A DNA stretch of 64,000 nucleotides from NCBI GenBank assembly GCA_900316675.1, contig ONDR01000005.1, positions 4,321 to 68,320 on the forward strand, in the 5' to 3' direction. The notes beneath the pieces are model-generated. The model made no database searches, was not told the DNA's origin, and worked only from the letters and a program-made list of their open reading frames with translations. Position 1 is the first letter of the stretch, and the number at the start of each line of letters is the position of its first letter. Shown in pieces: positions 16,698 through 52,541 of this stretch. Both the position numbers and the translations under genes were made by a program. The DNA is from an uncultured Bacteroidales bacterium (GTDB taxonomy: Bacteria; Bacteroidota; Bacteroidia; Bacteroidales; UBA932).

Positions 16698-16700
16698 GAT

Positions 16701-17404: not shown

Positions 17405-17437
17405 CTATAGTTTTAACGAACATGTCCAGATATTGAT
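17405..17437 (-). pseudogene. 3'-end remnant of a small minus-strand gene
   Basis: Minus-strand sequence here reads QYLDMFVKTIV then stop, and its DNA (TTTTAACGAACATGTCCAG and on) is nearly the same as the segment at 18012-18036, which reads KYLDQFAKIRTI then stop. This suggests a second, almost deleted copy of the same small gene between barrel paralogues 2 and 3. The match covers only about 25 bases, so confidence is limited. Confidence 0.45.
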
Positions 17438-35613: not shown

Positions 35614-38136
35614 ATGAAAAAGAACTTATTCAGAATAATAGGCCTGGGCATAGCTGCAGTTGCGATGCTGGCCTCCTGCTCCAAGAGCGAGGAAGACATC
35701 AATCCCATTAACGAAGATGCATTTCAGATGGTGGTTTCTACCGGAGACCCCTCTACAAAAACAATAATCGACGACATTGGCGGTGGAAAATACGGTGTTT
35801 TGTGGCAGGCCGGGGACAAACTGGCTGTTTACGAAGTTGGCAACGGAACTGTCCAGGGCAGGACGGAATCCACTTCTCTTGCATCCGGAGGCGCAACGGC
35901 CCAGTTCCAGTTCGCCTTCAGCGGCAGCCCTTCCGCTCCGTACGATTACACTTTTGTGTATCCGGCAGCGGCCCTTTCTCTGGAGAGTACCAAGTATTTG
36001 GTTAGCCTGCCTGCAACCCAGACCTTTGTTGCAAACAGCTTTGATCCGGCAGCCGATGTATTGATTTCTGAACATATACATTCAGAGAGCACTCGTCCTG
36101 ATAACATCAATGCACGTTTTGTCCGCCTTGGCGGCACGGCCCGAATGACCATAAAGGCCCCAACGACAACCGAAACCATCCAGAAGATTATCTTTTCTAC
36201 GACGGATGTCGATATTGCCGGTAAGTTTGAGCTGAATCCTGCTACCGGCGAGCTTTCCGATGCCACGGCAGAGGGCTTCAAGTCAATTACCCTTACTCCG
36301 GCAACCGCCACTGCCTTCACCGGCGAGGTCGTCGTTTGGTTCCGCCTGGCAGAGGTGACCCTTACCAATAACTTCACTGTTAGCGTCACCACGGACAAGA
36401 AAACCTATACCAAGACTCTTTACCTGAACACCCTTGGCCGCCAGCTTCCGTTCCAGAACAGCAAGCTCACCAACTTTGGAATTGACCTTCGCGAAACCGG
36501 CGGAGTTTCGGTTTTAAATGAAGATGTTATTAATGCTGAGTTTACCGGTGTGACCAGCTATTCCTATGCAACATGGAGTGGTAAAAAAGGAACTGCTACA
36601 AATGCTGTATATGCGGGAAATTCCAATACTCAGACTACAGGATACATTGGTCTTAGAAAGAATCACAGCAATTCAGGTATTGTCTCTACGTCTTCTGGCG
36701 GTATGCTAAAAACGGTAACTTTAAGCGTGTTCAGTGACAGTGATACATATTCCCGCACAATAGATGTATACGCAAAGACTAGTCCTTATAACAGTGCAGA
36801 GGATCTTTTTAATTCTGAAACAGCCGGAACTTTAATTGGTTCTGTGACTACACCGGCTAATCAGGTAAATACCGAGACAGTTGTAATCCCGGCAGGCTAT
36901 ACTTATGTTGGTATTCGCTCAAATGATTATACATCTTATCTTGTAGAGGCGCGTATTGTTTGGGAAGGACTGGCGTCGCCTGAAGTAACTACAGGTGCGT
37001 CTTCCGGCATTACGTGTTCTTCTGCTGTGCTTGAGGGCTCGGTTGTAAATGCGGCCGGCGGTATATATGAGGCCGGTTTCTACTGGGATACCGACGAGGC
37101 TTCATTGGCTGCCATGCAGCATCCTGACCAGGTTGTGACAACTGACGGTTTCGCTAATCCCAGCGGCTCCTTCAATGCAACCCTGGGAAGCCTTAACGAG
37201 CTTACTACATACTACTATCGGGCATATGTCCTTTGGCTGAATACAGAGACAAATACATACGAGGAGTTTAAAGGCTCCATCCAGTCTTTCCAGACAATAA
37301 CACGTGATTACAGTGTTGCGGGTTGGTTGGAGCTTCCGTCTTATACTACAGCCGGAATGGCCGGAACTACTACGTCATCATTGTCTGACTTGTATTGGAT
37401 AACCCATAAGGCCGAAATGGGCGGTCGCGAGCAACGTAATTATACCATGCTTTATGACCCCGAGCTGTATACTTCCTATTGGGTAGCATACCCTTTGTGC
37501 AGCGATCATATGACTTCTGGCCGAGTTGATTCTTGGGGCATTTTTGACCCTAAAGTTCCTAAAGGCAAACAGTTTAATCTTTCTTCTGGTTATGGAGTAG
37601 ATGAAGGAAGTAACTATTATGCAAGAGGTCATCAGATTCCAAATGCAGACCGTAATAATGTGTCCACAATGCAGGAACAGACCTATTATCCCACAAATAT
37701 GACTCCTCAGTTGCAGAATGGTTTCAATGGTGGTATTTGGGTGGATCTTGAATCTGCTGTGCGTTCCGCTGTCCATGCTGGTGATACCGTTTATGTTGTA
37801 ACGGGTGCGGCATTCCTCAAGAAAGGAGAGTCGAAAGAGATCAAAACCATCTATCCTACAGGTGGAAGACCAAGTCTTCAGGTTCCTAACTATTATTGGA
37901 AAGTTCTCCTTAAGGTTAAATGGAATGGTAGCAGCATCAACAATGCTAAAGCTGTGGGTTTCTGGCTTGAGCATAGGGATGACTTAAGATCAAGCACTTC
38001 GGCTTACCAGAATTACACCACCACCGTGGACCAGATTGAGGCGTGGACGGGATTTAACTTCTTTGCGAACTTGCCGGAGGCGCTGCAGAATGCCTGCGAG
38101 AATAGTTCGGACTGGACAGCATTCAAGAACTTTTAA
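35614..38136 (+). CDS. Surface lipoprotein with C-terminal DNA/RNA non-specific endonuclease domain
   Basis: 840 residues: lipobox MLASC, fimbrillin-like beta domain (about 35-290, LWQAGDKLAVYEVG, VYPAAALSL), a second beta domain (about 295-450), and an Fn3-like domain (VTTGASSGITCSSAVLEGSV). The C-terminal NUC1/EndA-type His-Me finger nuclease has YARGHQIPNADR with the DRGH-like core (His near 673), followed by YYPTNMTPQLQNGFN containing the metal-site Asn region. It probably cuts extracellular DNA or RNA for nucleotide scavenging or biofilm remodelling. ARGH instead of DRGH is a known variant but weakens the certainty of activity. The stop overlaps the MFS start (TAATG). Confidence 0.85.
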   Translation: MKKNLFRIIGLGIAAVAMLASCSKSEEDINPINEDAFQMVVSTGDPSTKTIIDDIGGGKYGVLWQAGDKLAVYEVGNGTVQGRTESTSLASGGATAQFQFAFSGSPSAPYDYTFVYPAAALSLESTKYLVSLPATQTFVANSFDPAADVLISEHIHSESTRPDNINARFVRLGGTARMTIKAPTTTETIQKIIFSTTDVDIAGKFELNPATGELSDATAEGFKSITLTPATATAFTGEVVVWFRLAEVTLTNNFTVSVTTDKKTYTKTLYLNTLGRQLPFQNSKLTNFGIDLRETGGVSVLNEDVINAEFTGVTSYSYATWSGKKGTATNAVYAGNSNTQTTGYIGLRKNHSNSGIVSTSSGGMLKTVTLSVFSDSDTYSRTIDVYAKTSPYNSAEDLFNSETAGTLIGSVTTPANQVNTETVVIPAGYTYVGIRSNDYTSYLVEARIVWEGLASPEVTTGASSGITCSSAVLEGSVVNAAGGIYEAGFYWDTDEASLAAMQHPDQVVTTDGFANPSGSFNATLGSLNELTTYYYRAYVLWLNTETNTYEEFKGSIQSFQTITRDYSVAGWLELPSYTTAGMAGTTTSSLSDLYWITHKAEMGGREQRNYTMLYDPELYTSYWVAYPLCSDHMTSGRVDSWGIFDPKVPKGKQFNLSSGYGVDEGSNYYARGHQIPNADRNNVSTMQEQTYYPTNMTPQLQNGFNGGIWVDLESAVRSAVHAGDTVYVVTGAAFLKKGESKEIKTIYPTGGRPSLQVPNYYWKVLLKVKWNGSSINNAKAVGFWLEHRDDLRSSTSAYQNYTTTVDQIEAWTGFNFFANLPEALQNACENSSDWTAFKNF

Positions 38137-39335
38137 TGGAGCAGACAGGACAGGACAAGCTTTGGAATTCCAATTACTGGAAGGTGATGACGGCGAACTT
38201 CAGCATGAGCTTCGCCTTCTACCTTCTGGCACCGCTGCTGCCGCTTTACCTTAGCGAGCACTTTGGCGCCGGTAAGGAACTCATAGGCCTGGTACTGTCC
38301 GGCTATGCCATTACGGCCCTGCTTGTACGCCCCTTCAGCGGCTTCCTGGCGGACAGTTTCCCCCGCAAAAGGGTGCTGCTGATAAGCCTTTGCCTGTATT
38401 TTGTCTTCTTTGGCGGCTATCTGGTTGCCGGAAGCATCGTCCTTTTTGCAATTGTCCGAACCCTGCACGGAGGCCCCTTTGGGGCGGCATCGGTAGCAAA
38501 CAGCACCATGGCGATAGACGTACTGCCATCGTCCCGAAGGACGGAAGGAATTGGCTATTACGGACTTAGCAACAATGTAGCGACGGCAATCGCTCCCTCT
38601 GTCGGCCTGCTGGTATATCAGTGGACCGGCAATTTTGACATATTGTTCATTATTGCCTTCGCGGTTGCAGGCCTGGGCTTTTGGGCCGACAGCACCATTA
38701 AGGTTAAGAGCCGCCAGCTTATCAATAACAAAAAGGCCCTGTCGTTGGACCGATTCTTCCTGTTGAAGGGCTGGGCGATAGGAGTGAACATTTCCATCTT
38801 TGGCATTTGCTACGGCGTTCTTAGCAACTATCTTGCAATTTACAGCAAGGAAGAGATGGGCATGACCGGCGGAACAGGTGTATTCTTCCTGCTTCTGGCC
38901 CTGGGCCTGATTATGTCCCGCCTTACTGGCGTAAGGTCGCTAAGGCAAGGGAAAATAGTGGCCAATGTTGGCCAGGGCGTGGTTTTTTCTACCATCGGCT
39001 ACCTGCTATTTGTGGCCTGCCCCAATGAAATTGGCTATTACGGGGCGCCGCTGCTCATCGGTTGGGGTAACGGCCATTTCTGGCCCGCCTTCCAGAATAT
39101 GATTATCAATGTAGCTAACAAAGACGAGCGTGGCACTGCCAACTCAACCCTCCTGACGGCATGGGACCTGGGGGTCGGAGTAGGCATTGTGCTTGGAGGC
39201 TCGCTTGCAGAAAATATCAATTTCAGTTTTGCCTTCTGGGCAGTGGCAGCCATCCACATTGTGGGCGCCCTGTTCTTTATAATTACGCGACGCGACTACC
39301 TGAAACGAACAATTTTGAACTATGGAACCAACTAA
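38136..39335 (+). CDS. MFS transporter
   Basis: 399 residues, about 12 hydrophobic helices. The loop motif GFLADSFPRKRVLL between helices 2 and 3 is the conserved major-facilitator signature. LVLSGYAITALLVRPFSG precedes it. Substrate unknown; the family includes drug, sugar and nucleoside exporters and importers. Start ATG overlaps the nuclease stop (TAATG) and its 3' end overlaps serB by 14 bases, so nuclease, transporter and serB appear to be one transcription unit. Coupling to the nuclease may point to nucleoside or nucleotide-product transport, which is inference. Confidence 0.88.
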   Translation: MEQTGQDKLWNSNYWKVMTANFSMSFAFYLLAPLLPLYLSEHFGAGKELIGLVLSGYAITALLVRPFSGFLADSFPRKRVLLISLCLYFVFFGGYLVAGSIVLFAIVRTLHGGPFGAASVANSTMAIDVLPSSRRTEGIGYYGLSNNVATAIAPSVGLLVYQWTGNFDILFIIAFAVAGLGFWADSTIKVKSRQLINNKKALSLDRFFLLKGWAIGVNISIFGICYGVLSNYLAIYSKEEMGMTGGTGVFFLLLALGLIMSRLTGVRSLRQGKIVANVGQGVVFSTIGYLLFVACPNEIGYYGAPLLIGWGNGHFWPAFQNMIINVANKDERGTANSTLLTAWDLGVGVGIVLGGSLAENINFSFAFWAVAAIHIVGALFFIITRRDYLKRTILNYGTN

Positions 39336-40557
39336 GGAACAAATACTTATAAGAATTGCCGGCAAGGATAGGATAGGTCTTACGGCAGAAGTAATGGCCA
39401 TTCTTGCAAAGTACGATGCCCAGATTCTGGACATCGGTCAGGCCGACATTCACAGCACCCTGTCCCTGGGCATACTGATCCGTATCGATGACAACCTTTC
39501 AGGACAGGTAATGAAAGAGTTGCTGTTCAAGACCACGGAACTTGGGGTAAACATCGGCTTCGAACCCATTTCAGACGACGATTATGAAGGTTGGGCAGGC
39601 CGTCAGGGCAAGAACCGCTACATCCTTACCGCCATCGGAAGAAGCCTGAGTGCCAAGCAGATAGAGGCTGCAACGGAGATAATTTCCCGCCATCAGTTGA
39701 ATATCGATGCCATCAAACGACTGACAGGCCGAATGAGCATCAAGCACCCGGAGCGCAATGTGCGCGCGTGTGTGGAGTTTTCTATCCGCGGAACGCTGGA
39801 AAATAAGGCCGCTTTCCAAAAGGAACTGATGACGCTGTCGGCCGATTCGGGCATGGACTTCTCTTTCCAGAAGGACGATATGTACCGCCGCATGCGCAGG
39901 CTGATCTGCTTTGATATGGATTCTACCCTTATTCAGGCCGAATGCATTGACGAACTGGCCCGCCGCCACGGGGTTTACGACAAGGTGGCTGCCATTACCG
40001 AGCGCGCTATGCGCGGAGAAATCGACTTCCGCGAAAGCTTTACCCAGCGTGTTGCTCTGCTTAAGGGACTGGATGTGTCCGTAATGAGGGAAATAGCTGA
40101 GAATCTGCCAATTACGGAGGGTACGGACCGCCTTATGAGCGTGCTTAAGACCTGCGGCTACAAGATTGCAATACTTAGCGGTGGTTTCACTTTCTTTGGA
40201 GAGTATCTGCAGCGCAAGTACGGAATAGATTACGTTTATGCCAACGAACTTGAGGTAGGGGAGGATGGCAAACTTACCGGCCGCTATGTGGGCGAAATCG
40301 TCGACGGCCGCCGTAAAGCCGACCTCCTGAAGCTTATTGCAATGACAGAGAAGGTCAATCTGGCCCAGACAATTGCGGTAGGCGACGGTGCCAACGACCT
40401 GCCGATGCTTATGGAGGCCGGCCTTGGAATTGCCTTCCACGCCAAGCCGCGAGTTAAAGAAAGTGCACGTCAGAGCCTTAGTACTATAGGTCTGGACGGA
40501 GTGCTATACTTCCTGGGTTTCAAAGATTCACATTTGGGAGAGCAAGGAAAACTGTAA
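39322..40557 (+). CDS. serB: Phosphoserine phosphatase with N-terminal ACT domains
   Basis: Last step of serine synthesis (O-phospho-L-serine to serine) in the cytoplasm. 411 residues. The N-terminal half holds two ACT-like regulatory domains (ILIRIAGKDRIGLTAEVMAI; RYILTAIGRSLSAKQIE). The C-terminal HAD domain starts with the nucleophile motif FDMDSTLIQAECIDELA (near 196) and has ILSGGFTFFGEYL and AVGDGANDLPMLMEAG. Overlaps the MFS gene by 14 bases and stops directly against the ATG of the ECF sigma factor (TAAATG). Identity secure. Confidence 0.95.
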   Translation: MEPTKEQILIRIAGKDRIGLTAEVMAILAKYDAQILDIGQADIHSTLSLGILIRIDDNLSGQVMKELLFKTTELGVNIGFEPISDDDYEGWAGRQGKNRYILTAIGRSLSAKQIEAATEIISRHQLNIDAIKRLTGRMSIKHPERNVRACVEFSIRGTLENKAAFQKELMTLSADSGMDFSFQKDDMYRRMRRLICFDMDSTLIQAECIDELARRHGVYDKVAAITERAMRGEIDFRESFTQRVALLKGLDVSVMREIAENLPITEGTDRLMSVLKTCGYKIAILSGGFTFFGEYLQRKYGIDYVYANELEVGEDGKLTGRYVGEIVDGRRKADLLKLIAMTEKVNLAQTIAVGDGANDLPMLMEAGLGIAFHAKPRVKESARQSLSTIGLDGVLYFLGFKDSHLGEQGKL

Positions 40558-41127
40558 ATGACACGGGAAGACGAGAAAATATGTCTTAGGGAACTCTCCA
40601 ACGGTAGCAGGCAGGCGTTTGAATGGCTGTTTCTGGAGTGGCATCCGCGTCTTGTGGACTTCTTCAACCGCATTTTAGGCGGGGACGAAGAAACCGCATA
40701 CGACTACGCGCAGGATGTGTTCTTTGATATATGGATGTCCCGTAAGAAGTTTTCCGAGGTCAATTCTTTCTCTGCCTACATCTTCCAGATGGCCAGGTTC
40801 AAGGCCTACAATCATTTTGACAAGAACGCTGTAAAAACCAAATTCACCCGCGACGCCGAGGTGACCGGCAGCGAAAGCACCCCCTCCGGCGAGGCTGTCA
40901 TAGAAGCATCTGAAACTGAAACCATTATACGCAAAACCCTAGAGCGAATGCCGCAGAAACGCCGCAAAGTGTTCATCCTGAGCCGCTTTAAAGGGAAGTC
41001 CAATGACGAGATCGCCCAGGAACTGGGAATTAACAAGAGAACAGTAGAAAACCACATAACAAACGTCCTTGACACACTAAGGAAACTGGTTAAGTTTATA
41101 GTCATTTTGTGTGTTACAGGCCTTTAG
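40558..41127 (+). CDS. ECF-type RNA polymerase sigma factor (SigW/RpoE-like)
   Basis: 189 residues. Sigma region 2: DYAQDVFFDIWMSRKKF and AYIFQMARFKAYNHF. Region 4: RMPQKRRKVFILSRFKGKSN and the helix-turn-helix GINKRTVENHITNVL. It would direct RNA polymerase to the downstream SusC promoter when released by the FecR anti-sigma. It begins with no spacer after the serB stop, so a basal supply from the serB transcript is likely. Such sigma/FecR/SusC triads in Bacteroidetes act as trans-envelope switches for glycan loci. Confidence 0.93.
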   Translation: MTREDEKICLRELSNGSRQAFEWLFLEWHPRLVDFFNRILGGDEETAYDYAQDVFFDIWMSRKKFSEVNSFSAYIFQMARFKAYNHFDKNAVKTKFTRDAEVTGSESTPSGEAVIEASETETIIRKTLERMPQKRRKVFILSRFKGKSNDEIAQELGINKRTVENHITNVLDTLRKLVKFIVILCVTGL

Positions 41128-41145
41128 AATTACATTACGATAAAG

Positions 41146-42027
41146 ATGGATAAAAAAACTAACATAGAGGAAGTATGGAATGAGAGTGGCGGAGAGGTCA
41201 ATTCTCGCACTTTCATGGAACTTCTGCGTCTTGGAAAGAGGATAGAGGTCGCTGAGGCCCGAAGCCGGCGCAGGAGGACCTTTGCCTATGCCGTAGCCAT
41301 TGCCGCATCGCTGGTTGCAGTTGTATCTGCGACCTTCCTGCTTACGCGCAACGAGTATGCCGTCTCTCCTTTGGACAGCACCCGCAACCTTGTGGCAGCC
41401 TATGGCCAGATGTCGTCCATCAAACTGGAAGACGGAACGATGGTTCATCTGAATTCCGGTTCCACTCTTTTATATCCGGCCTCTTTCAAAAACGGCAGCC
41501 GTATTGTCTATCTGACCGGCGAGGGTAACTTCGACGTTGCCAAAGACCCTGACAGGCCTTTCATCGTCAAGACCTCTTATATGGATGTCCAGGCACTTGG
41601 AACATCGTTCTGCGTACAGTCCTTTGTTGGGGATCGTGATGTACGTACAACCCTGAAGGAGGGAAAGGTGAAGGTGGATGTCCATTCAGGGGAAGGGAAG
41701 TCATACATTCTTGATCCCGGCATGCAGTTGGTTTATACTCCATCCCGCAAGAATGTCTTCCTTGCGATGGTTGATGCAGAAAGGGTAATGAGCTGGCAGA
41801 ACGGCTATCTTACCTTCAACAATGCATCCTTCCCCGAGGTCGCATCCGCACTTGAAAGGCGCTTCAACGTATCTATCAGCTACAATTCAGAAAACCTGAA
41901 GAAGAATGCCCTGAACGTGCGTTTTGTGCCGGACGAGACCCTTGAAGACGCCCTTGGCGTCCTGACCCTTCTGTTGCCTGGTTCAAGATATAGGATAGAG
42001 GGAGAAAGGGTTTACTTCCATTTCTAG
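41146..42027 (+). CDS. FecR family anti-sigma factor
   Basis: 293 residues. A cytoplasmic N-terminus (TNIEEVWNESGGEVNSRTF) would hold the sigma factor, one membrane helix follows (FAYAVAIAASLVAVVSATFLL, near 45-66), then a periplasmic FecR domain (GQMSSIKLEDGTMVHLNSGS; FDVAKDPDRPFIVKTSYMDV) and a C-terminal DUF4974-like STN-binding region (LERRFNVSISYNSENLKK). It lies 18 bases downstream of the sigma gene and upstream of a SusC with an STN domain, so a complete signalling relay is present. Confidence 0.93.
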   Translation: MDKKTNIEEVWNESGGEVNSRTFMELLRLGKRIEVAEARSRRRRTFAYAVAIAASLVAVVSATFLLTRNEYAVSPLDSTRNLVAAYGQMSSIKLEDGTMVHLNSGSTLLYPASFKNGSRIVYLTGEGNFDVAKDPDRPFIVKTSYMDVQALGTSFCVQSFVGDRDVRTTLKEGKVKVDVHSGEGKSYILDPGMQLVYTPSRKNVFLAMVDAERVMSWQNGYLTFNNASFPEVASALERRFNVSISYNSENLKKNALNVRFVPDETLEDALGVLTLLLPGSRYRIEGERVYFHF

Positions 42028-42037
42028 AAAAATCGCC

Positions 42038-42051
42038 TTTGACGCGTCAAA
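42038..42051. promoter_or_regulatory. Perfect 14-bp palindrome upstream of SusC
   Basis: TTTGACGCGTCAAA lies 84 bases before the SusC ATG. It may be a regulator site or part of the ECF promoter region. A second dyad (ATTGTGT 42099-42105, ACACAAT 42119-42125) sits just upstream of the start. No other gene is seen in 42028-42134. Confidence 0.5.
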
Positions 42052-42134
42052 AAATTTTATCGTTTTATTTGTGTGTCCTTTGGGGGCGCGCTTACTTTAT
42101 TGTGTAACCCAAAGTTTAACACAATTACTTAGGT

Positions 42135-45100
42135 ATGAAGAAAATCATTTTTGCAACGTTGTTCTGCCTTTTCTTGTGCGGATCCTTGTATGCTCAGACG
42201 CAGCAAGTGACCATGCAGGGAGGGGAGTCAGCATTGGGACAGGTTTTCAAAGAAATCGAGTCCCAGGCTGGGTTGTCAGTAGATTATGACGCCCAGGAAG
42301 TAGATGTAACCCAGAAGGTGACAGTCCCTGCAGGGAAGGTTACCGTAAAGGCTTTGCTTGACGCCGTTCTGGATAGGCTTGGTTATACCAGCACCATCCG
42401 CGGCACACATGTCATAGTAAAGACCAAACAAGCACCGCAGAAGCCGACTGTTACCGTAAGCGGTACGGTTGTGGACACCAAAGGTGATCCGGCTATCGGT
42501 GTGGGAGTATTACTGAAAGGGACCTCTCAGGGAACCGTAACAGGAGCTGATGGCCGCTATACCATCACCGTTCCCGGTAATGCTGTTCTGGTATTCTCTT
42601 CCATGGGATACAAGACCGTAGAAGTAGCAGTAGAAAACCGTCGCGTCATTAACCTGGAAATAGAGGAAGACGCTCTTTTTCTTGAAGATGCGGTGGTTGT
42701 GGGATACGGTGTTCAGAAGAAGGAAAACCTGACTGGCGCCGTTTCTGTCGTATCTTCAAAATCTATCCAGAACCGTACTCAGGCCAACCTTGGTAACATC
42801 CTTCAGGGTACAGTGCCCGGCCTTACCGTTACCAGTCCTTCCGGACGTCCCGGCGAAAGCGTATCTATCAACATCCGTGGTTGGAACTCTATCAACTCAG
42901 GTTCCCCGCTTGTTCTTGTCGACGGTGTGGTTGGTTCCCTTGAAAGGGTGAACCCCAACGATGTAGAAAGCATATCAGTACTTAAGGACGCCTCTTCCGC
43001 AGCAGTTTACGGAGCAAAGGCCGCATTCGGAGTTGTGTTGGTTACCACAAAATCCGGCGGCGACAGCGACGGCCATGCAAAAGTACGTTACAGCAGCCGC
43101 TTCGGCTTCTCATCTCCCACCACTTCAACAGATTGGGAGACACGCGGATACTATTCAGTATATCTTGCCAACCTTTTCATGAAGGCTTACAACGGCAACC
43201 AGCAGATATACTACAACGAGGACGACATGGAGGAGCTCTGGCTTCGTCGCAACGACAAGAAAGAGAACCCCGACAGACCCTGGGTCATCATCGACCAGAG
43301 CCAGGGCCGCAACACTTATAAATATTATGCAAATACCGACTGGTGGCATTACTTCTTCAACGACCGTAAGCCTATCCAGAATCACGATATCTCCTTCAGT
43401 GGCAGCACTAAAGGTGTAAAATATTTCCTCTCAGGTAATTACAACAAAGAGCAGGGCCTTTTCCGCATCAATCCCGATGTCTATAATAAATACAACCTTC
43501 GCGCCCGTTTCTCTTTTGATGTAAATCCTGTGCTGAATATCAGCAACAATACAGCATACTATTCATCAACTTACACATATCCCGGCCTTGCAGACCAGAA
43601 CGATACGTTCTACAAACTCACTGCCGGCTTCTTCCCCTTCCTGGTTCCCCAGACCCCGGACGGCAACTATCTGTATCAGACCGATTCCGGTGGCGGCGGC
43701 CAGTCAATCTCCGGCAACATCGCCAACAAGAACTTCAAGAATAAGGAAAGGGTAAGCAACTTTACCAATACGACAGAACTGACCCTCAAGCCTATCAAAC
43801 AACTTGAGATCAAGGGAAACTATACTTATTCCCAGAACAATGGTTCAACAATGAACCGTAGAGTGAACGGCGTCTTCGCATCCAAGATTCCTATGCAGAC
43901 TGAACTCCTTACTACCGGTGACAATGAGGACAAACTGTCCGAATCTACCCAGAGCATCGAGCTTCATTCATTGAACCTGTATGCAACATATACCGACACC
44001 TTCAACGAGTCTCACAACATTAAGGTGATGGCCGGTACCAACTACGAGACTTATTATCACAAGAAACTTACCGCAGCTGGCTATGACCTTCTCTCACAGG
44101 AACTTAACGACCAGAACCTGGTGAGCGGCGACGAGAACGGCGTTAAACGCACCGAGACCGGTGGCGGTCAGTCAGAATACGCACTGCTCGGCTTCTTCGG
44201 CCGTATCAACTACGACTATCAGGGCAAATATCTGGTAGAGATCAGCGGTCGTTACGACGGTACTTCACGTTTCAAGACCGGTCAGCGTTATGGCTTCTTC
44301 CCTTCAGCATCTATAGGTTGGAGAGTTTCACAGGAAGAGTTCTTCCGTCCTTTGAAGGATTGGTGGAACGACCTTAAGATCCGTTTCTCTTATGGTAGCC
44401 TTGGTAACCAGCAGGTTGGTTATTATGACTATATCCGTTCCATTACCCTTGGAACCCAGAGCTATCTGTTCGGCGCCAACAAGTCTTCTATCGCAACTTA
44501 CGGCAACCCTGTAGCATCAGACCTTACTTGGGAGACCGTTCAGCAGAAGAACCTTGGTCTTGACCTCTCCTTCCTGGACGGCAAGATTATGTTCACCGGC
44601 GAGGCTTACATCCGTGATACCAAGAACATGCTTACCACCGGTAAGGCTCTTCCTTCAGTTTACGGCGCATCCGCTCCTAAGACTAACAATGCAGACCTCC
44701 GTACCAAAGGTTATGAGCTCTCCCTTACTTACAGGAACAACTTCAACCTCTTTGGCCGTCCGTTCGAGTACAGCGCAACCGCTACCTTCAACGACTATAT
44801 TGGCCACATCACCAAGTTCGATAACCCTACCAACGACCTCTCTACCTATTATGAGGGCATGCGTTACGGCGAGATTTGGGGATACACCACCGGCGGTCTG
44901 TTCCGTACTGACGAAGAAGCTAAGACCTATCCTGTAGACCAGTCTTCAGTTTGCTCTATCATCTATTCTTCAGCAGGTGACGAGCACGGCCTCAGGGCTG
45001 GTGACCTCAAATACCTTGACCTTGATGGTGACGGTGTGATTGGAAAGGGCAGCAATACTCTTGACAACCCCGGCGACCGCAAGGTGATCGGTAACTCTCA

Positions 45101-45620
45101 GCCTCGTTACCAGTACGGCTTTACCTTCGCCTTCAACTGGAACGGCTTGGACTTCTCTGTATTCTTCCAGGGCGTTGGCCGTCAGGACTGGTACCCTAGC
45201 AGCGATGCACGCTATTTCTGGGGCCTTTATGCCCGTCCGTTCTCTTCATGGATCCAGAAGGACTTCCACAAGAAGTACTGGACAGAGGACAATCCTGACG
45301 CATACTTCCCGCGTCCCCGTGCATACGTAGCCATGAAGGATGGACGTGAGCTTGGTACAGTCAACGACAGATACCTCCAGAACCTTGGTTACTGCCGTCT
45401 TAAGAACCTGACTGTAGGTTATACTATTCCGCAGAATCTTACCAGAAAACTCTGCATAGATTCCGTACGCCTCTACTTCTCCGGTGAAAACCTCGCATAC
45501 TGGGCTCCCGGCCTGCACTGCGACTACATCGATCCGGAAGCAGCCGCCAAGACTAAGGACAAATATCCTATCTATCCTTGGCAGAAGACGTTCATGTTCG
45601 GCGTTGATATAAACTTCTAA
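42135..45620 (+). CDS. SusC/RagA family TonB-dependent transporter with STN signalling domain
   Basis: 1161 residues, outer membrane. Signal peptide (MKKIIFATLFCLFLCGSLYA), then an STN secretin/TonB short N-terminal domain at about 25-100 (FKEIESQAGLSVDYDAQEVD), which contacts FecR, then a carboxypeptidase-regulatory-like domain (VSGTVVDTKGDPAIGVGV), the SusC signature VVVGYGVQKKENLTGAV near 187, plug (NIRGWNSINSGSPLVLVDGV), and barrel ending FMFGVDINF. It pairs with the SusD gene starting right after the stop. It is expected to import a glycan or small oligosaccharide and to report its presence to the sigma switch. Confidence 0.95.
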   Translation: MKKIIFATLFCLFLCGSLYAQTQQVTMQGGESALGQVFKEIESQAGLSVDYDAQEVDVTQKVTVPAGKVTVKALLDAVLDRLGYTSTIRGTHVIVKTKQAPQKPTVTVSGTVVDTKGDPAIGVGVLLKGTSQGTVTGADGRYTITVPGNAVLVFSSMGYKTVEVAVENRRVINLEIEEDALFLEDAVVVGYGVQKKENLTGAVSVVSSKSIQNRTQANLGNILQGTVPGLTVTSPSGRPGESVSINIRGWNSINSGSPLVLVDGVVGSLERVNPNDVESISVLKDASSAAVYGAKAAFGVVLVTTKSGGDSDGHAKVRYSSRFGFSSPTTSTDWETRGYYSVYLANLFMKAYNGNQQIYYNEDDMEELWLRRNDKKENPDRPWVIIDQSQGRNTYKYYANTDWWHYFFNDRKPIQNHDISFSGSTKGVKYFLSGNYNKEQGLFRINPDVYNKYNLRARFSFDVNPVLNISNNTAYYSSTYTYPGLADQNDTFYKLTAGFFPFLVPQTPDGNYLYQTDSGGGGQSISGNIANKNFKNKERVSNFTNTTELTLKPIKQLEIKGNYTYSQNNGSTMNRRVNGVFASKIPMQTELLTTGDNEDKLSESTQSIELHSLNLYATYTDTFNESHNIKVMAGTNYETYYHKKLTAAGYDLLSQELNDQNLVSGDENGVKRTETGGGQSEYALLGFFGRINYDYQGKYLVEISGRYDGTSRFKTGQRYGFFPSASIGWRVSQEEFFRPLKDWWNDLKIRFSYGSLGNQQVGYYDYIRSITLGTQSYLFGANKSSIATYGNPVASDLTWETVQQKNLGLDLSFLDGKIMFTGEAYIRDTKNMLTTGKALPSVYGASAPKTNNADLRTKGYELSLTYRNNFNLFGRPFEYSATATFNDYIGHITKFDNPTNDLSTYYEGMRYGEIWGYTTGGLFRTDEEAKTYPVDQSSVCSIIYSSAGDEHGLRAGDLKYLDLDGDGVIGKGSNTLDNPGDRKVIGNSQPRYQYGFTFAFNWNGLDFSVFFQGVGRQDWYPSSDARYFWGLYARPFSSWIQKDFHKKYWTEDNPDAYFPRPRAYVAMKDGRELGTVNDRYLQNLGYCRLKNLTVGYTIPQNLTRKLCIDSVRLYFSGENLAYWAPGLHCDYIDPEAAAKTKDKYPIYPWQKTFMFGVDINF

Positions 45621-45631
45621 TGACTAAAGAT

Positions 45632-47452
45632 ATGAAAACCAGCATAAAGTATATTGGCGTCCTGCTTAGCGCTTCACTTCTTCTCGCTTCCTGTGAGAAG
45701 ACTCTGGACAAGTTCCCGCTGGATAAGCTGTCACCGGAGACCTTCCTGTCTACGGAGACCGAGATGCAGACTTACACCAATTCATTCTATACCATGTTCC
45801 CCGGTGCCAGCGACCTGTACTCAGAGAGCAGCGATGCTGTTATCGGTACAGATCTTCACCAGGCTCTCTGGGGCGGCAGAACCATCAATTCCGGCGACAG
45901 CGGCTGGTCTTGGGGCAACCTGCGCAAGATCAACACCTTCCTTGAGTATTCCGACAACTGCAAAGACGAGAAACTCAGGAACCAGTACAACGGCCTTGCC
46001 CGCTTCTTCCGTGCATATTTCTACTTCGAGAAAGTAAAAATGTTCGGCGACGTTCCGTGGTACGACCATACCCTTGGCTCTGACGATGCAGACCTTTACA
46101 AGCCTCGCGACAGCCGTGATTATGTAATGCAGAACATGATTGAGGATATCGACTTCGCTATCGCCAACCTGCCTGCAGAGCATTCCGATTACCGTGTTAC
46201 AAAATGGACTGCACTTGCCCTTAAGGCTCGTTTCTGCCTGTTCGAGGGTACCTATCGTAAGTACCATGCCGGTGACGTTACTCTTCAGAATCTTCCTGCC
46301 GATGCAAAAGATTACAAATTCTATCTTGAGCAGGCTGCAGCTGCTGCAGATGAGTTCATCACTTCAAGCGGATATTCAATCTATGCATCAGAGAGTACTG
46401 CTAAAAGCTATATCGGCCTCTTTACCAAGTACAGAGTATCTGAGGGTACCAACAAGGAGATCATTCTTGCCAGGAACTACAGCATCGAGTTTGGCGTTAC
46501 CCACAGTGCAAATGCTGCTTATGTAAGCTCTACCCTTGGCCGCGTTGGTCTTACCCGTAAGATTGTGGCCAGCTATCTGATGAAGGACGGCTCCCGCTTT
46601 ACCGACAAAGCCGGCTGGGAGACCATGCAGTTCGTAGAAGAGACCAAAAACCGCGATCCCCGTCTTGCCCAGAGCATCAGGACTCCCGGTTACTGCAGGC
46701 TCGGAACTGACATCCAGACAGCTCCCAATATCAATAATTCAGTGACCGGATACGCTCCTATCAAGTACTTCATGGGCCCTGAGGACGATACCTATCAGCA
46801 GTCATACTGCGACCTCGTACTCTTCCGTGCAGCAGAGGTTTATCTGGCTTACGCCGAGGCTAAGGCCGAGCTTGGAACCATTACCCAGACCGACATCGAC
46901 AGGTCAATCAAGCCGCTCCGCGACCGCGTGGGCATGCCTAACCTTGACCTTGCAGAGGCAAATGCCAACCCTGACCCCTATCTGCTTAACCAGTTGACCG
47001 GTTATCCCAAGGTTGCAGAGAAGAACTCTTCCAACGTTGGTGTAATCCTTGAGATCCGCCGTGAAAGGACAATCGAGCTCATTCAGGAAGGCTATCGTTA
47101 TTATGACGTAATCCGTTGGGCAGAAGGTCACACCTTCGAGAGCCAGCTTCTGGGAATGTATTTCCCCGGTGACGGCAATTATGACCTGAACGCCGACGGC
47201 ATTGCCGATGTTACCCTGTACAGCGGTGCTTCAGCCCCGGCCGGAAGTGCTTCACTTGCACTTAAGATTGGTTCTGACGTGACCCTTTCCGACGGTAATT
47301 CCGGTTGCCTCGAATTCCATAAGACCACCCGTCAGGGCTGGACATGGAACGACGGCAAGGACTACCTGTATCCTATTCCCGTAGAGGACAGAAGCCTTAC
47401 CCAGGGTGCTCTTACCCAGAACCCCGGCTGGAATGACGGTCTCTCGTTCTAA
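45632..47452 (+). CDS. SusD/RagB family outer-membrane lipoprotein
   Basis: 606 residues. Start taken at 45632 because GATATG precedes a good lipoprotein signal (MKTSIKYIGVLLSASLLLAS then C); another ATG at 45620 overlaps the SusC stop. RagB/SusD landmarks are LRKINTFLEYSDNCKD, ARFFRAYFYFEKVKMFGDVP, VTKWTALALKARFCLFEGT, LFRAAEVYLAYAEAKAELG and ERTIELIQEGYRYYDVIRW. It binds the ligand above the SusC pore. Downstream are two lipoproteins and the phosphatase/NAGPA fusion, probably in one operon. Confidence 0.95.
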   Translation: MKTSIKYIGVLLSASLLLASCEKTLDKFPLDKLSPETFLSTETEMQTYTNSFYTMFPGASDLYSESSDAVIGTDLHQALWGGRTINSGDSGWSWGNLRKINTFLEYSDNCKDEKLRNQYNGLARFFRAYFYFEKVKMFGDVPWYDHTLGSDDADLYKPRDSRDYVMQNMIEDIDFAIANLPAEHSDYRVTKWTALALKARFCLFEGTYRKYHAGDVTLQNLPADAKDYKFYLEQAAAAADEFITSSGYSIYASESTAKSYIGLFTKYRVSEGTNKEIILARNYSIEFGVTHSANAAYVSSTLGRVGLTRKIVASYLMKDGSRFTDKAGWETMQFVEETKNRDPRLAQSIRTPGYCRLGTDIQTAPNINNSVTGYAPIKYFMGPEDDTYQQSYCDLVLFRAAEVYLAYAEAKAELGTITQTDIDRSIKPLRDRVGMPNLDLAEANANPDPYLLNQLTGYPKVAEKNSSNVGVILEIRRERTIELIQEGYRYYDVIRWAEGHTFESQLLGMYFPGDGNYDLNADGIADVTLYSGASAPAGSASLALKIGSDVTLSDGNSGCLEFHKTTRQGWTWNDGKDYLYPIPVEDRSLTQGALTQNPGWNDGLSF

Positions 47453-47475
47453 TTGATTAAAAAAGTACAATAGAT

Positions 47476-49212
47476 ATGAAAAGAATAGTTTGTTCAATTC
47501 TATCCACACTGACATTATTCATTGCCTTGTCTTGTAACAAGAGCGATGATAAGACCTCTGTGATTGCATCGCTTGGGGTTTCAGTGAAAGGCACTGAGGA
47601 CGTAATAGAGATCCCCAAGCGCCAGTCAAAGAGCTTTGAGGTTAACCTTACTTCGGACCCCGGTCCGGAGGAGGCCCTCATCGTCACCCTGGGAGCGAAT
47701 GCAGAGCTTGTGGCAAAGTACAATGCCGCTCATGGTACTGACTACCAGCTGCTTCCGGCCGAGGCCTATGACCTTCCCGCAACTCCCTTCCTTCTTCCCA
47801 GGTACAACAAGGTTTCATCCCTTGAATCCATCACCCTTAAGGGTGCCGGCTGTATCCCCGGAGAGATTTATCTTCTCCCCTTGGTCGCAAACAAGGTTGA
47901 GGGTATGGCAGCATACGAAACCCCCGAGGACAAAGCCGCTTACATCCTATTCAAGATGCTTCTTCCTGACCAGGAGGGCGAGGGCACCCAGGACGATCCT
48001 TACATCCTCAATAACGTCAATGCTTTCATGAAGATCAGCGCCATGCTGCGTGAAGGCGAGACCGTTTACTTCAAGCTGGCAGGTGACATCGACCTTACCG
48101 GCATCGAGTGGGAATCCATCAACGGCGAGGGTAAGAAAGCTGCCCTTGACGGCGACGGACATACAATCCGCAACCTTACCGCTCCTCTGTTTGCTAAGCT
48201 GGAGGGTAGTGTTCAGAACCTTACCATCGACGGTGCGACCATTTCTGCTACAACCGCTGACTGCGGCGTACTTGCCGGAGCAGCCGGTATCGCAGAGCAG
48301 CCCAATGCCCTTGTTGCAAAGAACGTAACTGTTAAGAATGCTTCAATAGAGAATACCAACAACCGTGTGGGCGGTCTGATCGGCTACCTGTATGGCGGTG
48401 TTATTGAGAACGTAGATGTTGAATGTACCGTCAGCGGCGGTCAGCAGGTTGGTGGTTTCATCGGCCGTATGGACGCCGGTACGCTCATCAACTGCTCTGC
48501 AGAGGCTAATGTTACAGCAAGCAACTATTATGCAGGTGGTCTTGTTGCCTACATTGGTACCGCAACCGTAAAGGGTTGCCATTCAAGCGGTAAGTGCAGC
48601 AACGCAAGCACCGGCTATTCACGCGTGGGCGGTCTTATCGGCCAGATGCATGGCGGCTCCGTAGAGAACAGCTACTCAACTGTTGCTGTTGACGGTCTTG
48701 GTCACTTCGGCGGCGGCCTCATCGGTGTTGTCGATACCCAGGAATCAGTTGCAATCAGCAAGAGCTATGCTACCGGTAGCGTAACCCTGCCTCAGACCAA
48801 CAACAAGGCCGGCGCAGGCGCACTGCTCGGTTACATCGAAAAGGGTACCGTATCTATCGAAAACTGCTATGCTACCGGTGCTATCCAGGCCCGTCGTTGG
48901 AGCTCTGGTTTCGTAGGCCGTAACAATACCGGTATACTTACCATTGTCAATGGTTACACTACTTCCGACGTCAGCGCCATCGCACTGCCCGGAGCTTCCG
49001 GTATCGTGCTTGGTAACAATGGCGGAGCTGTAAGCTGCAGCGGCTTCATCGCATGGAATGTATCCAACTGGGCATTCTGCTACCCGGCTGACGCCGTTCC
49101 TACTGCTGGCAACTACTACGGCACCGAAGGCACTGTTTCTTCACAGGCTGTTACCCTTGGCTGGAGTACCGATATTTGGGATCTCAGCGGAGATGAACCT
49201 AAGTTGAAATAA
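47476..49212 (+). CDS. DUF1735 plus GLUG-repeat surface lipoprotein
   Basis: 578 residues with lipobox FIALSC. Residues about 35-150 form a DUF1735/BT_3987-like N-terminal domain (NAELVAKYNAAHGTDYQLLP). After EGTQDDPYILNN comes a right-handed parallel beta-helix with at least six GLUG units (VGGLIGYLYGGVIENV, VGGFIGRMDAGTLINC, VGGLIGQMHGGSVENS, GALLGYIEKGTVSIENC). GLUG repeats occur in adhesins and surface proteins. No catalytic motif is seen. Being third after SusCD it may be the SusE-like glycan-binding member of this locus. Confidence 0.85.
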   Translation: MKRIVCSILSTLTLFIALSCNKSDDKTSVIASLGVSVKGTEDVIEIPKRQSKSFEVNLTSDPGPEEALIVTLGANAELVAKYNAAHGTDYQLLPAEAYDLPATPFLLPRYNKVSSLESITLKGAGCIPGEIYLLPLVANKVEGMAAYETPEDKAAYILFKMLLPDQEGEGTQDDPYILNNVNAFMKISAMLREGETVYFKLAGDIDLTGIEWESINGEGKKAALDGDGHTIRNLTAPLFAKLEGSVQNLTIDGATISATTADCGVLAGAAGIAEQPNALVAKNVTVKNASIENTNNRVGGLIGYLYGGVIENVDVECTVSGGQQVGGFIGRMDAGTLINCSAEANVTASNYYAGGLVAYIGTATVKGCHSSGKCSNASTGYSRVGGLIGQMHGGSVENSYSTVAVDGLGHFGGGLIGVVDTQESVAISKSYATGSVTLPQTNNKAGAGALLGYIEKGTVSIENCYATGAIQARRWSSGFVGRNNTGILTIVNGYTTSDVSAIALPGASGIVLGNNGGAVSCSGFIAWNVSNWAFCYPADAVPTAGNYYGTEGTVSSQAVTLGWSTDIWDLSGDEPKLK

Positions 49213-49221
49213 TAGTTTGAT

Positions 49222-50409
49222 ATGAAAAAAGCTTTATTACTTATTATACTGCCCGTACTTACGATTGCTGCAATCTCTTGCAGTAAGAAAAGTGGCTCCG
49301 ACAACCTGCCGGAGCCAGTTATCACGGGCATCACAACCGACTATGGCGGCAAGGCCATCGCAGGTAAACCCGTACAGCTGAACGGAACCAACTTCAGCTC
49401 CAAGATTACTGACGTAGAGGTCCTGATGGGCGTTGGTCTTGACTCCAAGGCTCTTGAGGTGACAGAGGCTACCGAGACCAAGATCGTCTTCATCGCTCCT
49501 ACCATTGAAAGGAATCAGGTCAAGATCAGGGTATCCATCAAGGGTAAGGAGTCCCGGTCCGTTATGCTGGAGTTCACAGAAGAGGAAAAGCCCTGGGACG
49601 ATACTCCTACCATCGTTCTGGAAGGTGCTAAAACCGTTACCATCCGCGAGGGTGTCGAGTGGACTACTTTCCACGGTATGTGGGAGGGCCAGATCCGCAA
49701 CATCAACATTCTGCGCACCACTCTTAACGAGCACAACCGCATTGGCATCTACTACAACTATAGTGACGAGAACCTTATGGATCTGGACCAGAAATGCGAG
49801 TATCTGGATGCATTGGTTGGTACCAACGGTCCTATGGCTTGCTGCCATTATGTTCGTGTGGACGGTCAGACTATGAGAATTGCCAGGGAGAACGATCCTT
49901 CAGAGTACTTTGTTTACAACTGCGCCCTTACCATCGACGATAATGTTCCGGCCATTGTAAAGGTTAAGGATAACTTTGATGCGGCATCACTGCCTAACAA
50001 GACCATTGGTGTAGGTGGCCCGCTGCTGGTTTACGAAGGTGAGATTCAGTCTTATCCTGAGGAGAACACCGCAGACTTCCTTAAAGAGACTCATCCCCGC
50101 ACTGCAATTGGTATTTCCAAGGACGGTAAGACTGTCACTCAGGTTGCCATTGATGGCCGCTGGGACCGCAGCACGGCTGATGAGAGGGCTATCGGTATGC
50201 AGTCTGCTCTTCTGGCTAAGTTCATGAGGGGAATGGGCTGCTACAGCGCCATGAACATGGATGGTGGCGGCGGAACCGCAATGTGGGTTTACGGCCAGGG
50301 TAACTCCAGGAACATCGTAAACCACGTTAGTGAGAACCGCTGGGACTGGAACGGAACCAAGCTTCGCGCTACCGGCAATACTATTTACATCAGAAGTGAT
50401 TTGAAATAG
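49222..50409 (+). CDS. TIG-domain lipoprotein with NAGPA (DUF2233) phosphodiester glycosidase domain
   Basis: 395 residues, lipobox IAAISC at residue 20. An IPT/TIG immunoglobulin-like domain spans about 30-120 (VITGITTDYGGKAIAGKPVQ, NGTNFSSKITDVEV). The remainder is a DUF2233/NAGPA domain, the fold of human 'uncovering enzyme' that hydrolyses GlcNAc-1-phospho-6-mannose diesters. Visible motifs are WTTFHGMWEG, GVGGPLLVYEG, HPRTAIGISKDG and NMDGGGGTAMW near the end. Bacterial members act on sugar phosphodiesters in general. The first conserved segment is more divergent than in the next gene. Translated right after the GLUG protein (9-base gap). Confidence 0.83.
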   Translation: MKKALLLIILPVLTIAAISCSKKSGSDNLPEPVITGITTDYGGKAIAGKPVQLNGTNFSSKITDVEVLMGVGLDSKALEVTEATETKIVFIAPTIERNQVKIRVSIKGKESRSVMLEFTEEEKPWDDTPTIVLEGAKTVTIREGVEWTTFHGMWEGQIRNINILRTTLNEHNRIGIYYNYSDENLMDLDQKCEYLDALVGTNGPMACCHYVRVDGQTMRIARENDPSEYFVYNCALTIDDNVPAIVKVKDNFDAASLPNKTIGVGGPLLVYEGEIQSYPEENTADFLKETHPRTAIGISKDGKTVTQVAIDGRWDRSTADERAIGMQSALLAKFMRGMGCYSAMNMDGGGGTAMWVYGQGNSRNIVNHVSENRWDWNGTKLRATGNTIYIRSDLK

Positions 50410-50416
50410 TGGATTA

Positions 50417-52510
50417 ATGAAGAAAGTATCAGTATCTTGCTTTCTGACTCTAATGGCTATGGGACTCTGCTTTGCGCAGAGCCCCATTGATGCTATAAGT
50501 CAGGACCCCGACAAAGCCGCAGGCTCCTTCTACGTTTATGACTACAAGGATGCGCCTGCACTCACCCCATCCCCCGAAGGTTATAAACCCTTCTATATCA
50601 GCCATTTCGGCAGACATGGCGCACGTTATTGCACCAGCGAGTACGATGCTCTTCACGGCTGGCTGACCAAGGCTGCCGAGGCCGGCTGTCTGACAGAAGA
50701 GGGTAGGGCACTATACTCCCGATTTGAAAAATACTATCAGAAAGTAAGGTATTGCCGGGGCAACCTGACCGGTATCGGCAAGGACCAGCACAGAAGTATC
50801 GGCATGCACATGTATCAAAGGTTTCCGCAGGTTTTTGACGGGCCTACCCATGTAGAAGCGGTGTCTACCGAATCGCCAAGGGTGATAATGAGCATGTGGT
50901 CCTGCCTCTCAAGCCTGCAGGCCCTGGACAAGGATATTGATTTTTCTGCAGATGCATCTGCGAAGTACGCTCCGTGGCTGCAGCCCAGCCTTTCTACCAA
51001 CCCGTACCTGATTAAAGACGGGTTCAAAGCGGGTAGGGAAGCAGAGGAAAAGCTCAAAGAATACTTTGAGCAGACCGTTCCCTGGAAGGAAATCACGGAG
51101 AGGTTCTTCACTTCTGCTGACGTACTGAACGATGTCCTTAAGACCAGCCCGGAGAAGTTTATCGAATACCTTCATGGCGTGGTTACCTGCACCCGTTGCA
51201 TAGACAACGACCAGGCGTACTTCGACAACGTTTTCTCTAAAGAGGAACTGCTTCAGATTTGGAAGGGGACATCGGCCGGATACTTCCTTGCCGTGGCAAG
51301 ATACGAGGGCTCGCAGAGCCTGGTGCTGGATTACGCGGCTTTCACCCTTGACCAGATTATAGAGGCCGCCGATGCGGACATTGCATCCGGCAGCACCCAG
51401 CTTAGGCTGCGCTTCGGGCACGATTCCGGCATCGCTCCGCTTATGGCCGTGTTGGACGTAAACGGTTACGGCCGCTCCACGGCTTCCTTTGAAGAGGCCC
51501 TGGAAATTTACCCCAGCTATAATATCCCCATGGGTGCATCCCTGCAGCTTGTTTTCTACAGGAATGATGCCGGAGATGTACTTGTAAAGGTTCTTGTAAA
51601 TGAGAAGGAAGCCACTCTGCCGCTCACATCCGTCAGCGGGCCCTATTACAGGTGGTCAGACTTCAAAGCCCACTATCAGCCGATTGTAGATGATTCAAAG
51701 CGAAAGGTTATAACCACCGAGCCTCTTGCAATCCTTAGGAACACAGACTGGGGCTGGCAGACAATTGCCGGCACCAAGGCGGAATACGGGGCAGCATCGG
51801 TAAAGGTCTTTGGCAGCACACAGAGCATATCCATCGCCCGCATTCCCATTTGGGAGCATTCCGTTTCAGTGGTAGAATCCGATGGCCCGTCGGCTATGAT
51901 AACCAGTGACTTCGGAGAGAAAAACCAGGCCCTGGCCGCCATCAACGGCAGTTATTTTAGCAAACAGCTAATGCCCGTGACCTATGTGAAGGACGAGGGC
52001 AAGGTCGTCAGCACCAGTAACGCAGACGGGGTGGACCGTTGCAATGCCATGTTCAGGATCAAGGACAAAAAGGGCAGGAAAATAGATATCGTCTCCGTTG
52101 ATGCCAATACCAATGCGGCTGCCGCAAAAGGCTGGCGGGAGGCCATCGTTTCCGGGCCGATACTGCTGGAAGACGGCAAGCCGGTTCTTTATAAGGACGA
52201 TGGTTCCAAATCCTATCGCGGTTTTTATGCCCGCAGGCATCCCCGCAGCATTCTTGGCTATACAGAGGATGGCTGGCTTTATTTCATAGTGGTTGACGGC
52301 CGTTTCCCTTCACTGGCCGATGGTATGAGCATTTCAGAGCTTACGATTCTTTGCGAAGCCCTTGGCTTGTACGAGGCTCTAAACCTTGACGGCGGAGGTT
52401 CATCTACCCTTTGGACACGTGGTCAGGGCGTTTTGAACCATCCCTACGACAATAAGGTCTTTGACCACTCCGGCCAGCGGATAGTTCCAAATGCTATTAT
52501 CGTGAAGTAA
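50417..52510 (+). CDS. Histidine acid phosphatase (MINPP-like) fused to NAGPA phosphodiester glycosidase
   Basis: 697 residues, exported (MKKVSVSCFLTLMAMGLCFA). Residues 40 to about 425 are a branch-2 histidine phosphatase with the RHGARY catalytic motif (His67) and the GHD acid motif (FGHDSG, Asp336), closest in style to multiple inositol polyphosphate phosphatases of Bacteroidetes. Residues 440-697 are a NAGPA/DUF2233 domain: LAAINGSYF, IVSGPILLEDG, RHPRSILGYTEDG and LNLDGGGSSTLW. A phosphodiester glycosidase would expose a phosphomonoester that the phosphatase half could remove. The frame runs through without shift. It is the last gene before a bidirectional terminator; 7 bases separate it from the TIG-NAGPA gene. 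Confidence 0.9.
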   Translation: MKKVSVSCFLTLMAMGLCFAQSPIDAISQDPDKAAGSFYVYDYKDAPALTPSPEGYKPFYISHFGRHGARYCTSEYDALHGWLTKAAEAGCLTEEGRALYSRFEKYYQKVRYCRGNLTGIGKDQHRSIGMHMYQRFPQVFDGPTHVEAVSTESPRVIMSMWSCLSSLQALDKDIDFSADASAKYAPWLQPSLSTNPYLIKDGFKAGREAEEKLKEYFEQTVPWKEITERFFTSADVLNDVLKTSPEKFIEYLHGVVTCTRCIDNDQAYFDNVFSKEELLQIWKGTSAGYFLAVARYEGSQSLVLDYAAFTLDQIIEAADADIASGSTQLRLRFGHDSGIAPLMAVLDVNGYGRSTASFEEALEIYPSYNIPMGASLQLVFYRNDAGDVLVKVLVNEKEATLPLTSVSGPYYRWSDFKAHYQPIVDDSKRKVITTEPLAILRNTDWGWQTIAGTKAEYGAASVKVFGSTQSISIARIPIWEHSVSVVESDGPSAMITSDFGEKNQALAAINGSYFSKQLMPVTYVKDEGKVVSTSNADGVDRCNAMFRIKDKKGRKIDIVSVDANTNAAAAKGWREAIVSGPILLEDGKPVLYKDDGSKSYRGFYARRHPRSILGYTEDGWLYFIVVDGRFPSLADGMSISELTILCEALGLYEALNLDGGGSSTLWTRGQGVLNHPYDNKVFDHSGQRIVPNAIIVK

Positions 52511-52515: not shown

Positions 52516-52541
52516 AATCGCAGTCCTACAGGGCTGCGATT
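52516..52541. terminator. Bidirectional terminator between the NAGPA locus and argH
   Basis: AATCGCAG and CTGCGATT (52516-52523, 52534-52541) form a stem with inner CCT/AGG pairing. A-run before and T-rich sequence after suit both convergent transcripts. The argH stop codon lies within it. Confidence 0.8.

Follow-up and report, generated by a model that had tools for sequence, protein, structure and literature searches.

A SusCD locus with NAGPA and histidine phosphatase enzymes in an uncultured Bacteroidales bacterium: a candidate system for phosphoglycan use

What would a nutrient-uptake operon import and process if its enzymes are putative phosphodiester glycosidases and a phosphatase? This question is raised by a seven-gene locus at positions 40558-52510 of a 64,000-nucleotide stretch of DNA (hereafter the window; assembly GCA_900316675.1, contig ONDR01000005.1, positions 4,321 to 68,320) from an uncultured Bacteroidales bacterium. 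The locus encodes an ECF sigma factor, FecR, SusC, SusD and three further proteins, two of which carry a NAGPA (DUF2233) domain, in one case fused to a histidine acid phosphatase (HAP) domain. On balance, the SusCD locus probably, though far from certainly, serves to use a small phosphoglycan, which would be taken up, uncapped by NAGPA and then dephosphorylated.

The window is part of a 2.05 Mb draft genome of 28 contigs. The genomes of close relatives were obtained from metagenomes, mostly of rumen samples or other samples of the ruminant gut, and these sampling sites suggest that the source organism is probably a rumen-type uncultured Bacteroidales.

Organisation and conservation of the seven-gene unit

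The gene set, the gene order, the single direction and the closing terminator described in the original prediction, which was made from the DNA sequence without database searches, were all confirmed at the same positions. All seven genes lie on the + strand. The features of the locus are listed below; L058, L060 and similar labels denote loci of related genomes.

40558..41127, + strand: ECF sigma-70 factor (TIGR02985, Bacteroidetes subfamily); an 82% identical orthologue heads the L058 unit
41146..42027, + strand: FecR anti-sigma factor (profile match), conserved in L058, L060 and L040
42066..42096, + strand: conserved non-coding block from a three-species alignment, candidate ECF-sigma promoter upstream of SusC
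42135..45620, + strand: SusC/RagA TonB-linked transporter with N-terminal STN (TIGR04056, 873 bits)
45620..47452, + strand: SusD lipoprotein (PF07980, 151 bits; lipobox LASC)
47476..49212, + strand: BT_3987-like_N (former DUF1735) and GLUG repeat lipoprotein, likely a surface glycan binder (lipobox ALSC, then NKSDD)
49222..50409, + strand: NAG1, a TIG and NAGPA lipoprotein, likely a surface phosphodiester glycosidase (lipobox AISC)
50417..52510, + strand: His_Phos_2 (branch 2) and NAGPA fusion, likely a periplasmic bifunctional enzyme (signal peptide without lipobox)
52516..52541, no strand assigned: terminator-like hairpin of 11 pairs between convergent genes, with argH on the far side

From SusC through the fusion gene, neighbours either overlap, as do SusC and SusD, or are separated by gaps of at most 23 nt, and the sole longer gap of the operon is the 107 nt between FecR and SusC. 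The adjacent SusC-family transporter and SusD-family lipoprotein define a SusCD locus. As a Pfam profile search of the seven proteins returned no glycoside hydrolase (GH) or lyase and the enzymes are NAGPA and HAP proteins, the locus is a variant of the SusCD utilisation loci and not a classical polysaccharide locus.

The conservation of this arrangement was then considered. In another genome, L058 contains all seven genes in the same order with 75-91% identity and with unrelated flanks, thus marking the ends of the conserved unit. The SusC-SusD-GLUG-NAGPA-fusion order is retained in L060, L061 and L077; L060 and L077 carry one or two more genes ahead of the fusion, and the SusC of L061 lacks the N-terminal STN part and is not preceded by a sigma/FecR pair. 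Among the results that would count against it, the original prediction had named a lack of NAGPA genes next to this SusCD in related genomes; the pairing was found to be conserved. Since the gene order is kept in these four loci and the catalytic motifs are invariant, the seven-gene unit is real and reflects more than chance. A lipoprotein of about 250 residues, absent from the window, lies between NAG1 and the fusion in some relatives (L060 9189-9962, L059 2758-3531, L077 6975-7715); a family search with this protein gave nothing clear, the match obtained being weak and GH2_N-like.

All three components of an ECF sigma/FecR/STN-SusC signalling set are present, the STN domain being recognised by a score below the curated cut-off (22.8 against 28.4 bits) at the expected N-terminal position. 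The block at 42066-42096, 5' of SusC, could be aligned across three genomes of different species and is a candidate ECF-sigma promoter of SusC. A search for further targets returned this one site as the single match both in the window and in the whole genome, which fits a sigma factor having one target. Lipoboxes occur on SusD, the GLUG protein and NAG1, suggesting a surface location for these three proteins, while the fusion would reside in the periplasm.

Upstream of the unit, serB (39322-40558; two ACT domains and a HAD domain) stops one base ahead of the sigma start codon; in L058 a different gene precedes the sigma gene.

Motifs and fold of the NAGPA proteins

Motif conservation was scored in an alignment of 66 homologues, counting at each site the rows that have letters there. 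The HAP motifs RHGxR (R66-R70), R155 and H335-D336 were invariant in all 27-28 covering rows, and the NAGPA residues N510, H608xR610, R629 and N656xDGGGS in all 60-61, with aspartate at position 627 in 58 of 62 rows. The fusion carries the RHGxR motif, second arginine and H-D (alternatively H-A-E) that characterise branch 2 of the histidine phosphatases, as well as the conserved N, HxR, DGR and NxDGGG of NAGPA. The PF09992 (NAGPA) profile scored the two window proteins at 125.2 and 85.5 bits, above the cut-off of 25. Judged by this alignment, the fusion has intact catalytic motifs in both of its domains. NAG1 in turn retains HPRT, DGR and DGGG.

A first structural model of the fusion, built from 6 sequences, had a pLDDT of 51.6 and was remade with the 66 rows, giving a mean pLDDT of 94.6 and a pTM of 0.88. 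Residues 21-433 of the latter model aligned to the Prevotella MINPP 7r5y (Z 48.6, 2.5 A over 402 residues), residues 433-697 to B. ovatus BACOVA_00430 (3ohg; Z 28.8) and residues 453-697 to mammalian NAGPA (6pku; Z 25.8); structure matches were also searched with Foldseek. Of the solved structures, 7r5y is nearest to the HAP domain, with 30% identity. The fusion reads HDS at 335-337, where the B. thetaiotaomicron MINPP BT_4744 has HAE, and has Gln where MINPPs conserve Arg183, so that it lacks both the HAE tripeptide and the arginine of a MINPP in the BT_4744 sense. The HD is likewise present in 7r5y.

Coupling of NAGPA to phosphatases and a sister locus

In order to place the fusion in a wider context, the genomic neighbours of NAGPA genes were counted within 5 kb in 18 genomes of the genus, in which 44 NAGPA genes fell into 35 loci; five phosphatase positions were added to this survey from a separate listing. 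A HAP gene lay within this distance at 10 of the 35 loci against at most 0.72 expected, a number reached in none of 200,000 simulations that treat related genomes as independent.

The genome of the window also has another SusCD locus, likewise encoding BT_3987N and GLUG lipoproteins (contig C9, 80-119 kb; L006, L007). This sister locus comprises three further NAGPA genes, one of them joined to a histidine phosphatase domain in the opposite arrangement (NAGPA-HAP). The next gene, at L007:10318-11697, encodes an MFS protein whose nearest relatives are GlpT (1pw4, E 2.8e-49) and glucose-6-phosphate exchangers, and which also matches the GlpT, PgtP, UhpC and UhpT family models, all under the curated cut-offs. 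Orthologues of this putative antiporter occur at most 5 kb from NAGPA in three loci of the genus (0.28 expected, P ~0.003) and adjoin NAGPA in L084 and L090. An organophosphate:phosphate antiporter fits a pathway yielding sugar phosphates. A phosphoglycerate mutase of the sister locus was rejected as a pathway member, being a housekeeping enzyme.

In trees of the individual domains, the HAP-NAGPA fusions of the window type, of L070/L072/L075 and of L149/L150 fell into separate phosphatase clades, and those of the window type and of L149/L150 adjoin stand-alone phosphatases. The sister-locus fusion belongs to a fourth clade, in which both domain orders occur: NAGPA-HAP in the genome under study, L061, L068, L147 and L151, and HAP-NAGPA in L043-L045. 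Some forks have modest support. According to the trees, HAP and NAGPA became fused on three or more occasions, and each domain order is represented.

In other loci, four unrelated types of phosphohydrolase are fused to NAGPA or encoded next to it. Bacteroides congonensis and its relatives have the order sigma-FecR-SusC-SusD-NAGPA-BACON/LRR-NAGPA followed by an alkaline phosphatase, and loci of this type or close variants were found in cultured Bacteroides (L113, L118, L124, L132, L123); the B. gallinarum locus also contains a DUF4434 protein. In four genomes (L116, L119, L125, L134), proteins of about 1400 residues combine NAGPA with LRR_5 and with a tyrosine-phosphatase domain whose HCx5R motif (HCAIGRDRT) is intact. 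Calcineurin-type enzymes come after NAGPA in L095 and L128, and an exo/endo-phosphatase was found in L148. Fusions of NAGPA with calcineurin-like domains have been remarked earlier for other bacteria (PMC11188070). That NAGPA has been paired again and again with unrelated phosphatases argues more strongly than any other observation for a reaction in two steps, in which the sugar is first uncapped and then dephosphorylated.

Branch-2 histidine phosphatases are expanded throughout the genus, with 8 His_Phos_2 matches in the approximately 2 Mb of the genome under study (C7, C8, C9, C11, C12, C13). Among related genomes, G013 encodes a histidine phosphatase fused to a calcineurin-type phosphoesterase (L054 7797-10739), and at L055 6609-16020 a SusCD pair is next to a histidine phosphatase and two GH123 genes, possibly another locus for a phosphorylated glycan. 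The adjacency of NAGPA, TamB and a convergent GH92 gene in rumen Bacteroidaceae (L099, L102, L104 and others) was discarded, as TamB is a housekeeping protein. Elsewhere in the window, positions 35614-38136 encode an 840-residue protein with a C-terminal DNA/RNA non-specific endonuclease domain (PF01223), and positions 14001-18000 have a G+C content of 0.39-0.40 against about 0.51 around, possibly a foreign stretch.

Proposed pathway, alternatives and related systems

In the phosphoglycan pathway that we propose, the ligand would be sensed by SusC and its STN domain and the signal passed through FecR to the ECF sigma factor, which would switch on the SusC promoter. The glycan would be held by SusD and the GLUG lipoprotein, NAG1, likely at the surface, would trim or cut glycosyl-1-phosphodiester bonds outside, and the product would be imported by SusC. 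The periplasmic fusion would then take the remaining sugar caps off, in the manner of the mammalian mannose-6-phosphate uncovering enzyme, and its HAP domain would act on the exposed phosphomonoester to release free sugar and phosphate; in sister loci the antiporter could instead import the sugar phosphate.

As to the sugar, three genomes from a single clade encode a GH92-NAGPA fusion (L049-L051, with a Pfam check on L049), and an unusual barrel protein of the outer membrane (OMP_b-brl_4) is encoded upstream of it. The sister locus is followed by GH130 and two GH92 genes, set apart by the phosphoglycerate mutase. The absence of glycoside hydrolases and lyases, as stated in the original prediction, held for the window but not for the orthologous L060 locus, where a double-GH92 protein lies 317 nt downstream of the fusion. 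In the genus survey, GH43 was near NAGPA at chance level, and mannosidase linkage as a general rule was rejected by these statistics; it is retained only as a lead that individual loci and fusions provide. Mannose-phosphate glycans are therefore slightly favoured as substrate, as a lead and not as a finding.

Several observations weigh against the proposed pathway. GH92 occurred within 5 kb of NAGPA at 2 of the 35 loci against 0.8 expected, which is chance level, and so was GH130. The linkage tests take related genomes as independent, so that the P value of the HAP count is too small. NAG1 has NGPMACC in place of the NGSYF of the fusion and its catalytic competence is uncertain; no substrate has, to our knowledge, been assayed for a bacterial NAGPA of this clade. 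Furthermore, the protein locations were read from signal peptides only, and a GlpT/UhpT-family antiporter is absent from the window locus.

The chief competing explanation is phosphate scavenging, in which the operon would be induced by shortage of inorganic phosphate (Pi) and would draw Pi from varied organic phosphodiesters and monoesters, the sugar being a by-product. It has a direct precedent in the loci PUSI-PUSIV of Flavobacterium johnsoniae, which combine SusCD-like/TonB transporters with phosphodiesterases and phosphomonoesterases in place of carbohydrate-active enzymes (CAZymes), have an ECF sigma factor or FecR in two cases and are induced by Pi depletion only (PMC8115612). Since these Pi-induced loci have such regulators, the sigma/FecR pair of the window is compatible with scavenging as well, which again tells against our proposal, and both the lack of a CAZyme in the locus and the expansion of HAP genes agree with it. 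However, NAGPA is a glycosidase of sugar-1-phosphodiesters and not a general phosphodiesterase, antiporters of the sister-locus type exchange incoming organophosphate for Pi and are thus ill-suited to pure Pi scavenging, and some members are joined to GH92 domains. We consider scavenging a live rival, although a rather unlikely one. A comparable degree of doubt attaches to the idea of an envelope polymer from bacteria or protists, whether a poly(glycosyl-1-phosphate) or one resembling teichoic acid, which NAGPA itself would depolymerise. This would account for the missing glycoside hydrolase, there being no other depolymerase in the locus, and it agrees with the up to four NAGPA genes of the sister locus and with the two NAGPAs of the window, which, one with and one without lipobox, would suit cutting first outside and then inside; the GH92 links of relatives, however, point weakly to mannosides.

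Use of phytate or inositol phosphates, with a phytase-like HAP and NAGPA domains of minor or unrelated function, appears improbable. The structural relative 7r5y was crystallised with an InsP6 analogue, and its HD leaves phytate compatible with the HAP sequence, so that the argument from HD in place of HAE and from Gln at the Arg183 position is weakened; two conserved NAGPA domains with invariant residues, however, would have no role on phytate. It is more improbable still that the NAGPA domains work on the envelope of the bacterium itself and not on food. NAGPA is indeed widespread in bacteria outside such loci, including the control genomes of E. coli and B. subtilis, but here it is inside a sigma/FecR-SusCD operon kept as a unit, and cultured Bacteroides have it within another SusCD operon.

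The phosphoglycan pathway retains the core of the original prediction, namely capture, phosphodiester cleavage and phosphate removal, which was strengthened by the conservation of the unit and by the coupling of non-homologous phosphohydrolases to NAGPA. Its suggested substrates (phosphomannan, mannose-6-phosphate N-glycans or teichoic-acid-like polymers) were not established, as the GH92-NAGPA fusion and GH92 neighbours point to mannose yet show no enrichment in the genus; nor was phosphate scavenging as the main purpose, the sister-locus antiporter fitting sugar-phosphate uptake equally well.

More tentatively, these loci might represent an undescribed class of phosphoglycan loci across Bacteroidota, with SusCD import of capped sugars (perhaps of fungal, protist or host mannose-6-phosphate type), NAGPA uncapping, varied phosphatases, an optional antiporter and repeatedly evolved bifunctional enzymes. 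Literature searches for a NAGPA-based SusCD locus returned no description in the collection of papers searched. If true, the phosphoglycan reading would assign a function to the widespread NAGPA/DUF2233 family, few of whose roles have been assayed, enlarge the known diet of gut Bacteroidota by phosphodiester-linked sugars and take SusCD systems beyond glycan use based on CAZymes. The repeated pairing of NAGPA with phosphatases within SusCD loci would be surprising to specialists, and the bifunctional enzymes might serve to trim or remove mannose-phosphate on glycoproteins. As cultured Bacteroides (congonensis, xylanisolvens, finegoldii, gallinarum and sp. GM023) have counterparts of the locus, the question can be tested directly.

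Among known systems, the F. johnsoniae PUS loci share with the window locus the gene content of phosphodiester and phosphomonoester enzymes beside SusCD with no CAZymes, but the enzyme families differ, being calcineurin-type phosphodiesterases and a PhoA-type phosphatase there (PMC8115612) and NAGPA and HAP-NAGPA here; moreover, Pi-depletion induction was demonstrated for the former. The ECF sigma/FecR polysaccharide loci of Bacteroides have the same order of sigma, FecR, SusC(STN), SusD and surface lipoprotein, whereas the window enzymes are predicted phosphodiester glycosidases and a phosphatase in place of glycoside hydrolases or lyases. One GH92 enzyme hydrolyses Man-1-P-6-Man (Tiels et al. 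2012, as cited in PMC9522356 and PMC12024695), providing a bacterial parallel for the uncapping of mannose-1-P-6-mannose; GH92-NAGPA fusions occur in relatives, but the window locus contains no GH92. With the MINPPs (BT_4744 and 7r5y of Prevotella CAG:617) the fusion shares the fold, RHGxR and the second Arg, and with 7r5y also HD, but it is set apart from BT_4744 by HD in place of HAE, and from MINPPs by Gln at the Arg183 position and the attached NAGPA. Finally, the mammalian uncovering enzyme (NAGPA; 6pkg, 6pku) and BACOVA_00430 (3ohg) have the Pfam family, fold and conserved residues in common with the C-terminal domain of the fusion; 3ohg is a single domain, whereas the domain of the window is fused to a histidine phosphatase within a nutrient-uptake operon.

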